DNA from: Rhodanobacter sp.
Lineage (GTDB): Bacteria > Pseudomonadota > Gammaproteobacteria > Xanthomonadales > Rhodanobacteraceae
Reading direction: 5' to 3'
Length of the DNA stretch: 46,197 bases
Assembly: GCA_027307195.1 (NCBI GenBank)
Contig: DAHUXL010000253.1
Location: 1-46,197, forward strand
Shown: piece after piece, positions 13,285-44,356 of the stretch
Layout: every line of letters starts with the position of its first letter
Numbering within the stretch: the first letter of the stretch is position 1
Translations under genes and position numbers: made by a program
Notes under the pieces: generated by a model
Databases searched by the model: none
Told to the model about the DNA's origin: nothing
Seen by the model: only the letters and a program-made list of their open reading frames with translations

Positions 13285-13785
13285 ATGATCCGTTTTTCCA
13301 CACTGCTGACGCGCGCCACGGCCGCGCTCATCCTGGGCAGCCTGCTCGTACTCGCCGGCTGCCACCGCGGCAGCACCAAGGGTGAGATCAGCGCGGCTTC
13401 GGCGCAGGGACGATTCGATACCACCATTCAGGCCTACAAGGGCGGCCAGTTTCTGGTCGATGGCGCAGTACTCTCAGCGCTGGATACCGGCAGCCATTTC
13501 GCTTACTTGAAGGATCAGGGCAAACTGCCGAAGACGGTACTGCTTGAGCGCAGCGATGACTCGAAGATCCGCAAGGATCACCTGCAATACATGGCGCGGA
13601 TGCAGCTCGATTATGGCTTCACCGTGTATTACGACGATGGCGGTACCTTGAAGCAGATCAACCCGGTGGCGGTGAAGGCCCGTCAGCTTCAGGACTACCA
13701 CGCGCCGGTCGCCATGCCTGATCAGATGAAAGGCAAGGATGCTGCCGGCAGCTCGATGGAAGACCAGCAGCAACAGCACTATTGA
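13285..13785 (+). CDS. Putative lipoprotein, unknown function
   Basis: This 166-residue predicted lipoprotein has a basic n-region, a hydrophobic stretch and a lipobox LVLAGC, with the acylated Cys at residue 27. The next residues, HRG, carry no Asp at +2, so outer-membrane sorting is likely. The mature part is polar, with no recognised domain; it includes YKGGQFLVDGAVLSALD and ends in a Gln-rich tail (EDQQQQHY). AGGAG upstream supports the ATG at 13285. The gene stands alone after dcd and ends at a strong bidirectional terminator. I cannot assign a function. Confidence 0.75.
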   Translation: MIRFSTLLTRATAALILGSLLVLAGCHRGSTKGEISAASAQGRFDTTIQAYKGGQFLVDGAVLSALDTGSHFAYLKDQGKLPKTVLLERSDDSKIRKDHLQYMARMQLDYGFTVYYDDGGTLKQINPVAVKARQLQDYHAPVAMPDQMKGKDAAGSSMEDQQQQHY

Positions 13786-37073: not shown

Positions 37074-37943
<870 letters not shown>

Positions 37944-37968
37944 CTCGACGCAGTGGTTGCAGCGAACC

Positions 37969-37990
37969 GATGCCGCCGTCAGGCGGCATC
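37969..37990 (+). terminator. Terminator hairpin after accD
   Basis: GATGCCGCC-GTCA-GGCGGCATC (9-bp perfect stem, 4-base loop) followed by GTCGTTTC. It lies 26 bp past the accD stop, ending the truA–accD gene block. Confidence 0.75.
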
Positions 37991-38023
37991 GTCGTTTCTG
38001 CATCCGGATATTCGACGCACGGG

Positions 38024-38069
38024 TTTTCCACAATCGATGTGGACGCCTGTCGGTAAAGCCTGTGGACAA
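38024..38069 (+). repeat. 46-bp DnaA-box-like element, copy 1
   Basis: It begins TTTTCCACA and ends TGTGGACAA, with 28 bases between. TTTTCCACA fits the DnaA-box consensus TTWTNCACA; TGTGGACAA is TTGTCCACA reversed (one mismatch). Inside, TCCACA-ATCGA-TGTGGA also forms a 6-bp hairpin. GGTAAAGCC precedes the last box. Copies 2 and 3 have the same length and spacing. Confidence 0.8.
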
Positions 38070-38185
38070 GCCACATGTGTTGCTTGTCGATCAGGCACTT
38101 GCTACGCGGTGATCAGGAATTGCGCAGGTGCGTCGCGCGGTAGCGGACGAGTGACAGATGGGCATCGTCATGACCGATGAGATAG

Positions 38186-38231
38186 TTTTCCACAGCATCT
38201 GTGCACGTCTTCGCTGCAAGCCTGTGGACAA
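38186..38231 (+). repeat. 46-bp DnaA-box-like element, copy 2
   Basis: It runs from TTTTCCACA to TGTGGACAA with exactly 28 bases between, as in copy 1. The internal hairpin is imperfect (TCCACA-GCATC-TGTGCA). CAAGCC precedes the last box. The start is 162 bp from copy 1. Confidence 0.8.
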
Positions 38232-38311
38232 CCTGGTTCAGCCCCTTTGTCGACAGGTACTTGGCACGGCGTGCTGAGATTTTGCGCAGTGCCTGCCGCC
38301 GCGATGCGGAG

Positions 38312-38357
38312 TAATCCACAGTGATTGTGGAGCGTGAGCGGTAAAGCCTGTGGACAA
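38312..38357 (+). repeat. 46-bp DnaA-box-like element, copy 3
   Basis: It runs from TAATCCACA to TGTGGACAA, again with 28 bases between. The internal hairpin is perfect (TCCACA-GTGAT-TGTGGA). GGTAAAGCC before the last box is identical to copy 1. The start is 126 bp from copy 2. Confidence 0.8.
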
Positions 38358-38416
38358 GTGAGCTATCTGCCTGACCGTAAAGGCGCTTGTGACGACGTGC
38401 GCAAAGCTTGCTCAGG

Positions 38417-38992
38417 TCATGCGAGTTTCGTTGCCAGCGACAACAGCCACAGCGACGAGACACCGAGCCCGCTGCCGATGGCTATCGCCGCGAGCACGTC
38501 ACTGGGATAGTGCAGCCCGAGGATCACCCGCGAGGCTGCCACCAGCAGGGTGAAGCCGAGCAGCAGCGGCGCGAGTTGCGGATACCAGGCCAGCGCGACG
38601 ATGCTGAAGCTCACCGCCTGCAAGGTATGTCCCGACGGAAAACTGAATTCGTCCAGCGGTGGCACATGAGCGATAACGCCCGGGCAGACGCGATAGGGGC
38701 GCGGCCGGCGGGTCCAGCGTTTCAGCAGGCGATACAGCAATAGCGCAGTCAGTCCGGTGGCTGCCATATGCGCGGCGGCCGCGAGTCCGCGCGGGCCGCC
38801 GACCACGGCCAGCACCGCCATCAGTGCATACCAGAAGACGCCATCGCCGAGCCGGCTGATCGCACCGAAGAACAGACCCACGGCGCGTCGTGTGCCCCAA
38901 CGGTTCGCCGCCATGCAGACGCGACGATCCAGCGCGAGACGGGGCAAGCCGGTCGACAGCTCAGGCGTGTGCAGCGGCGGCAAGGTGCTCAT
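38417..38992 (-). CDS. PAP2-family membrane phosphatase
   Basis: This 191-residue integral membrane phosphatase has the three PAP2 signature motifs: KRWTRRPRP (motif 1), FPSGHT (motif 2) and SRVILGLHYPSD (motif 3). It carries several membrane segments (for example YALMAVLAVVGG, AAHMAATGLTALLLYRLL, LAPLLLGFTLLVAA). Such enzymes act on lipid phosphates, such as undecaprenyl pyrophosphate or phosphatidic acid; which is not clear here. It overlaps the glycosyltransferase gene by 32 bp. The ATG at 38992 is supported by GAGGAG 7 bases upstream, inside that gene. The pair suggests shared work on a lipid-linked glycan. Confidence 0.92.
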   Translation of the reverse strand: MSTLPPLHTPELSTGLPRLALDRRVCMAANRWGTRRAVGLFFGAISRLGDGVFWYALMAVLAVVGGPRGLAAAAHMAATGLTALLLYRLLKRWTRRPRPYRVCPGVIAHVPPLDEFSFPSGHTLQAVSFSIVALAWYPQLAPLLLGFTLLVAASRVILGLHYPSDVLAAIAIGSGLGVSSLWLLSLATKLA

Positions 38993-43870: not shown

Positions 43871-44356
43871 TTGAGCCACGACGCCGCACACAGTTCGCAC
43901 GCGCATCATCCGCATCATCACGATGCCAAGGGATTCGTGCGCGCCGTGGAGCACGCCAGCGAGGAGCGCGGCCTGCGCCTGACTCCGCTGCGCAAGGAAG
44001 TGCTGGAGCTGATCGCGGCCGCGCACAAACCGGTCAAGGCCTACGATCTGCTGGACCAATTGCGCGAGAAGCATGGCAACGCGGCGCCCCCCACGGTTTA
44101 TCGCGCGCTCGATTTCCTGCTTGAAAACGGCTTCATCCACAAGCTGGAATCGATCAATGCCTTCGTCTCCTGTCACCACCCGACGGAAGCGCATCAGGTG
44201 CCGTTCCTGATCTGCGATACCTGTTCCAGCGCTGAGGAAGTCTGTGATGAGCGGGTGGCTGAGCTGATCGAGGCGCAGGCCAAGGCGCTTGGTTTCAAGC
44301 CGCAGGCGCAGACGCTGGAAGTGCACGGCACCTGCAAGCAGTGCCGCAAGGCCTGA
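43871..44356 (+). CDS. zur: Fur-family zinc regulator (Zur-like)
   Basis: This 161-residue Fur-family repressor has a His-rich N-terminus (SHAHHPHHH) that is probably an extra zinc-binding stretch. The winged-helix recognition region is PPTVYRALDFLLENGFIHKLE. Zinc-site cysteines are in LICDTCSSAEEVC and the C-terminal CKQCRK, typical of Zur. It most likely shuts off zinc uptake genes when zinc is plentiful. The start is set at TTG 43871, since GAGGTG lies 6–12 bases upstream; a GTG at 43862 is too near the likely transcription start. A palindromic operator candidate lies after it, before the MerC-like gene. Neighbouring zinc genes support the role. Confidence 0.85.
   Translation: MSHDAAHSSHAHHPHHHDAKGFVRAVEHASEERGLRLTPLRKEVLELIAAAHKPVKAYDLLDQLREKHGNAAPPTVYRALDFLLENGFIHKLESINAFVSCHHPTEAHQVPFLICDTCSSAEEVCDERVAELIEAQAKALGFKPQAQTLEVHGTCKQCRKA

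Follow-up and report, generated by a model that had tools for sequence, protein, structure and literature searches.

Tandem 104-bp DnaA-box units between accD and a PAP2-family gene in Rhodanobacter: candidate DARS2-like modules

Why should three units of exactly the same length, each bearing DnaA-box-like sequences at the same inner spacing, lie between accD and a PAP2-family gene in a Rhodanobacter genome? The locus was found in a 46,197-nt stretch of a draft Rhodanobacter sp. assembly (contig DAHUXL010000253.1), hereafter termed the window, and its anatomy, fixed spacing, conservation, place between convergent genes and common facing-pair geometry were observed directly and are described first.

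Anatomy of the array and a second core at priA

The three 104-bp units of the original prediction (38023-38126, 38185-38288 and 38311-38414, plus strand) could be aligned without internal gaps, and a 104-position model, termed R2, matched them at 38023-38126 (79.5 bits), 38185-38288 (73.3 bits) and 38312-38414 (75.2 bits, model positions 2-104), so that both their length and their common inner spacing were upheld. Since their start-to-start distances are 162 and 126 bp, the units are repeated and non-contiguous. The predicted neighbours were also recovered: accD (37074-37943, plus strand; TIGR00515, 418.5 bits) and the PAP2-family gene (38417-38992, minus strand; PF01569, 68.5 bits) both match above cut-off and are convergent. 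A terminator-type scan found three terminator-like sites against 0.6 expected and placed a hairpin after accD and before the array (37968-37991, plus strand), which is also visible in the sequences of most relatives.

Each unit contains a 46-bp element (38024-38069, 38186-38231 and 38312-38357, plus strand) made of three boxes, termed A, B and C, in which A faces B while B and C point in the same direction. Counted from the first base of box A as zero, A occupies offsets 0-8, B 14-22 and C 37-45, leaving gaps of 5 bp between A and B and 14 bp between B and C in every unit. The core of unit 1, defined from sequence and conservation, consists of A at 38024-38032 (TTTTCCACA), B at 38038-38046 (TGTGGA core) and C at 38061-38069, with a weak candidate box, M, read from the sequence at 38051-38059 on the plus strand. 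By sequence, unit 2 holds A at 38186-38194 (again TTTTCCACA), B at 38200-38208 (TGTGCA core) and C at 38223-38231, and unit 3 holds A at 38312-38320 (TAATCCACA), B at 38326-38334 (TGTGGA core) and C at 38349-38357. Box C is a strong box and reads TGTGGACAA in all three units. In total, nine TCCACA, TGTGGA or TGTGCA hexamers mark the array (38027, 38038, 38061, 38189, 38200, 38223, 38315, 38326 and 38349).

An excess of DnaA-box-like nine-mers, put at seven to nine in the original prediction, is real at a count of six: eight nine-mers within one mismatch of TTATCCACA occur in the whole window, six of them within the array, and 60 first-order Markov shuffles of the window gave a mean of 3.1 such nine-mers per window and a maximum of 2 within any 340 bp. 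Box B keeps only the TGTGGA or TGTGCA core. Off the array, isolated DnaA-box-like nine-mers lie at 13294-13302 (TTTTCCACA) and 44133-44141 (TCATCCACA) of the window.

Across the 3.46-Mb draft genome, only four matches to the facing pattern TNCACA-N5-TGTGNA were found, one in each of the three units and the fourth in a canonical triad; the reversed pattern had no match. An interspersed repeat was rejected, as a DNA-similarity search of the same genome returned the array at a single place. The canonical triad, TTATCCACA-AGACC-TGTGGATAA-GTC-TGTGGATGC, lies upstream of priA (PriA_3primeBD domain) on another contig (G000:C237:9977-10011, minus strand), where the 5-bp facing pair is followed by a third box after 3 bp. 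It resembles the units in its facing pair and shares their genome; it differs in its form (TTATCCACA-5-TGTGGATAA-3-TGTGGA), in being a single copy and in standing without a 104-bp unit. When one mismatch was allowed, such a core was found in 138 of 147 family genomes (once in 136, twice in two; control 0), with priA present in 28 of the 30 loci fetched; when two were allowed, it was found in 266 of the 369 genomes sampled from Gammaproteobacteria, spanning 201 of 272 genera (control 0). Because DARS1/2-like sequences are conserved in many proteobacterial species according to a review (PMC10380432), the priA core may be already known. A similar site with TGGGGA for box B was seen about 5-12 kb from the priA core in seven genomes (G168 C1:4725826, G178 C1:2570509, G234 C1:1498343, G188 C1:3949839, G076 C1:2940151, G081 C1:2773065 and G102 C1:2690267).

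Recurrence, spacing and constraint

Recurrence at accD in relatives had been proposed as a check, and the array does recur: a DNA-similarity search of 60 genomes recovered it from 35 of the 36 that belong to the genus, its own among them (the exception is G023), and accD was identified in 28 of 30 loci (own included), PAP2 in 25 and both in 24. A pattern bound to the spacing counted three units in 16 of these 30 loci and two in 14, although the two-unit counts may be low for L010, where accD was not found, and for L026, where neither neighbour was. Searching with blastn matched none of 24 genomes from other families of the same order; this understates the range, because the geometry pattern later matched three of those 24 (G036, G047 and G056).

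Model R2, a sequence-only model built from 76 units which replaced an earlier one (R1) for searching, matches 136 of 197 family genomes and 24 of 26 genera at a threshold of E 0.001, with 1 to 16 matches each, the weakest of them near the threshold. When only the geometry was searched and up to two mismatches were allowed, matches came from 23 of 28 family genomes, often with several units at one to three places, and the reversed-pattern control in the same 28 gave no match in 27 and two in G076. At most one mismatch was allowed in the wider class, where 19 of 369 genomes matched and the reversed control gave one match (G293). Five of the 19 are convincing, two from the own family (G000 and G073) and three from a sister family (the G036, G047 and G056 named above). 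Thirteen of the other 14 read as canonical 5/3 cores, on one strand or the other, whose agreement at the third position is accidental, and were rejected as array units; G464 reads as neither.

A scan of named genomes with the pattern TTNTCCACA-N5-TGTGGA-N17-TGTGGACAA matched at least 117 stretches, of which 80 were listed and 62 of those entered closer comparison. The matches listed include Rhodanobacter, Dyella, Luteibacter, Frateuria, Fulvimonas, Xanthomonas, Stenotrophomonas, Thermomonas, Lysobacter and [Pseudomonas] boreopolis, together with outside records from Geobacter argillaceus, a Geobacteraceae MAG, two Deltaproteobacteria MAGs, Burkholderiaceae bacterium 16, a gamma MAG and a contig labelled Eremiobacteraeota. 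Xanthomonas contributes 31 stretches among the matches listed, 14 at one locus, 15 at another and 2 at a third, and one example taken from each of the two main loci has its unit between reading frames read as convergent. The contig labelled Eremiobacteraeota (L097) carries accD, PAP2 and two units at Xanthomonadales-like identity, and its bin label is therefore probably wrong. The Geobacter, Geobacteraceae and Deltaproteobacteria records show the A-5-B-14-C arrangement with a Fis-like palindrome near offset 85-86 (L146:3524-3623, L131:5846-5896, L107:4406-4463 and L143:4527-4581).

Since the 76-unit set was picked by a regular expression that itself fixes the spacing, we argue the constancy of spacing only from an unbiased count in 30 intergenic stretches, in which a gap of 5 occurred 63 times, a gap of 28 (A to C) 74 times and a gap of 15 twice, with no other box gap up to 30. 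Over the 76 units, columns have a mean identity of 0.997 for box C, 0.958 for box A, 0.925 for the core of B and 0.806 for the M stretch, compared with 0.653 for the 5-bp gap and 0.474 for the gap behind B. In comparisons of five close species, differences number 0/270 in C, 14/270 in A, 17/180 in the B core, 41/390 in an IHF-like 13-mer and 66/450 in a Fis-like 15-mer (both described below), 221/1500 in the rest of the unit and 271/730 between units. These counts indicate that the boxes are under the tightest hold and that the whole unit is held above the DNA between units; the Fis-like 15-mer varies as often as the rest of the unit.

Some protein other than DnaA, for example a transcription factor, might read the TCCACA-N5-TGTGGA palindrome that A and B form together, given that DnaA binding is a prediction. 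We regard this as improbable, because box C repeats the same core in one direction only, Luteibacter units contain a perfect TTATCCACA, accD and PAP2 converge on the array in 24 of 24 loci with both neighbours, and a search for a sigma-70-like promoter at the array found none.

A structured RNA family or small RNA, as the original prediction had also suggested, appears barely credible: unit 1 does fold better than its shuffles (z -3.79), but units 2 and 3 fold weakly or not at all (z -2.10 and 0.28), an Rfam search of the region returned no family at threshold, and none of the six pairs predicted by an alignment fold of the 76 units changed on both sides. We thus rejected this reading. A coding remnant was rejected as well, on the ground that the distances between units in relatives (113-162 bp) often fail to keep a triplet frame; the 162 and 126 bp of the own array happen to keep it.

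That the array is a second or decayed replication origin is suggested by a cluster of DnaA boxes in an intergenic stretch, and seems very unlikely nonetheless. Linkage to dnaA, taken here as a stand-in for the origin, is absent, for the own draft has dnaA on another contig and four relatives have it 1.4-1.5 Mb away from the array, in agreement with the earlier statement that this is not a standard origin. Moreover, no long AT-rich stretch was seen on reading the array sequence (57.7% G+C), and its boxes face each other, whereas those of oriC run head-to-tail according to a review (PMC10380432). Taking dnaA as the origin, the array is located at 40.7% of genome length in G025, 37.7% in G027, 35.0% in G031 and 38.3% in G033 (on the larger of two contigs), and the canonical core at 13.0% in G025 and 13.3% in G033. 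The chromosomal place of the array may simply follow accD.

Candidate Fis and IHF sites and a proposed function

About 41 bp after box C, most genera carry a palindrome that fits one or the other of two Fis consensus forms, the A/T-rich one being GNNNAWWWWWTNNNC. The other form is GnnYAnnnnnTRnnC, as quoted in PMC8682772, and its putative sites in the array are 15-mers on the plus strand at offset 87, located at 38111-38125 in unit 1 and 38399-38413 in unit 3, each with 6/6 consensus positions, and at 38273-38287 in unit 2, read from the sequence with 5/6. For the Fis and IHF counts, Rhodanobacter units were sorted by simple motif rules into first (28), mid (19) and last (29) classes; elsewhere the classes are by position. 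An exact consensus stands at offset 87 in 21/28 first, 27/29 last and 1/19 mid units, and allowing one mismatch brings in 28/28 first, 29/29 last and, of the 19 mid units, eight at offset 86 and seven at 87, against a background of 0.001 per base in the window. Exact matches in other genera comprise 16/19 Luteibacter units at 86 and 3/4 Frateuria, 1/2 Fulvimonas and 2/15 Dyella units at 87; Xanthomonas has 1/32 at 86 with five of six positions in 20/32, and there were none in 5 Thermomonas, 3 Stenotrophomonas and 1 Lysobacter units.

The A/T-rich form, with a window background of 0, occupies offsets 86-87 in 29/32 Xanthomonas, 5/5 Thermomonas and 1/1 Lysobacter units, in 0/19 Luteibacter, 0/15 Dyella and 0/3 Stenotrophomonas units, and in 1/28 first, 1/19 mid and 1/29 last units of Rhodanobacter. 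The two forms are thus complementary across genera, which fits one palindrome at one place but does not prove that it is a Fis site. Contig C116 encodes a protein of 117 aa whose end is of Fis type (NF001659, 74.9 bits, under the cut-off of 99).

In some unit classes only, an IHF-like core precedes the Fis-like palindrome. Unit 1 carries a putative IHF-like site at 38089-38101 (plus strand, offset 65), GATCAGGCACTTG, one mismatch from WATCARNNNNTTR; unit 2 carries a weak putative site with the CARnnnnTTR core alone at 38254-38263 (plus strand, offset 68), and this core was not found in unit 3. At offset 65, WATCARNNNNTTR with one mismatch was found in 25/28 first, 0/19 mid and 0/29 last units, and the CARnnnnTTR core in 28/28 first units, in mid units at offset 68 (11) or 67 (7) of 19, and in 2/29 last units. 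Among other genera the core is present in 15/19 Luteibacter units at 67 and 5/15 Dyella units at 68, and near offset 67-68 in 0/32 Xanthomonas units. Because the units are homologous, agreement between unit classes is not independent.

In E. coli, DARS1 and DARS2 turn ADP-DnaA into ATP-DnaA, as described in PMC5742627 and PMC4245941. We consider it moderately probable that the array is built of compact DARS2-like modules, which would reactivate DnaA in the same manner. From the arrangement of the sites we infer binding by DnaA, Fis and IHF and its outcome in nucleotide exchange: two DnaA molecules would sit on boxes A and B, face to face across 5 bp, and a third on the strong, B-oriented box C, one helical turn beyond its E. 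coli position, with the weak box M perhaps taken up between B and C. Fis, bound about 41 bp behind C, and in some unit classes also IHF, bound between C and Fis, would give the DNA a form in which DnaA releases its ADP and returns to the ATP-bound state, so that the initiation potential at oriC rises. The array would then probably act as lineage-specific switches that help to set the timing of chromosome copying. More tentatively, Xanthomonadales may have evolved a second, tandemly amplified DnaA-control element, A-5-B-14-C with a fixed Fis-like site, beside the canonical priA core, in which copy number and a place far down the replichore would tune the rate of DnaA recharging.

DARS biology was established in E. 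coli; Xanthomonadales are marked by a distinct variant that is repeated. Should the modules recharge DnaA, they would represent another architecture for the same job and offer a direct test of the spacing rules for head-to-head DnaA assembly. Our literature search, covering titles and abstracts and few subscription papers, found no DARS report for Xanthomonas or Xanthomonadales and nothing on this array.

Comparison with DARS1, DARS2 and datA

The E. coli K-12 bioD-uvrB stretch, which we take to contain DARS1, reads TTATCCACT-ATTCC-TGTGGATAA-CCA-TGTGTATTA, and the stretch before mutH, holding the DARS2 core, reads TTATTCACC-TTTTC-TGTGGATAG-AGT-TGTGAAGAA. The identity of the latter is confirmed by deletion primers quoted in PMC4585315. 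A head-to-head pair is characteristic of DARS and essential according to reviews (PMC10380432, PMC5742627), and boxes A and B of the units form such a pair with the same 5-bp gap as boxes I and II. DARS1 shares this pair with the units; unlike them, it has its third box 3 bp behind the pair instead of 14 bp, and the accounts consulted describe no Fis or IHF requirement for it, in contrast to the candidate sites of the units. In DARS2, too, boxes I and II face each other with 5 bp between them and the third box points the same way as II; beyond the core come IHF and then Fis sites (PMC4245941, PMC8682772), for which the units offer candidates of uneven fit. Yet its third box lies 3 bp behind II, whereas the strong box C lies 14 bp behind B, one helical turn more, and DARS2 extends over 455 bp compared with units of 104 bp whose Fis-like site is about 41 bp from the core. 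Also unlike DARS2, two or more units stand in tandem, and some of them miss the IHF-like site. A weak box-like nine-mer of the TGCATAACG type lies 4 bp behind B, plain in Luteibacter and degenerate here. Because the canonical spacing of the third box is not kept, we call the units DARS-like and do not file them as DARS.

The original prediction had proposed a replication-control locus acting on DnaA, possibly in the manner of datA. As a predicted DnaA-binding control locus it gains from the recurrence at accD, the near-invariant boxes and the 5-bp pair of DARS1/2 type, while datA proves to be the poorer model. If the array held DnaA by titration, or promoted its ATP hydrolysis as datA does, initiation would be lowered, whereas we read the units as reactivating and datA inactivates DnaA. 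The dense cluster of good boxes, the tandem copies in many genera and the IHF-like site in unit 1 would suit such a role, and datA is itself an intergenic DnaA-box cluster with an IHF site. Even so, we judge titration or inactivation, the main rival reading, rather unlikely, given that pure titration does not need an invariant spacing and that a 5-bp facing pair is a DARS trait in the reviews cited above. The datA region contains a facing pair with a 3-bp gap and no 5-bp pair was seen there, and the required datA boxes 2 and 3 flank an IHF site (PMC4585315), whereas the IHF-like site of a unit comes after every box of that unit. DARS fits the array better than datA does.
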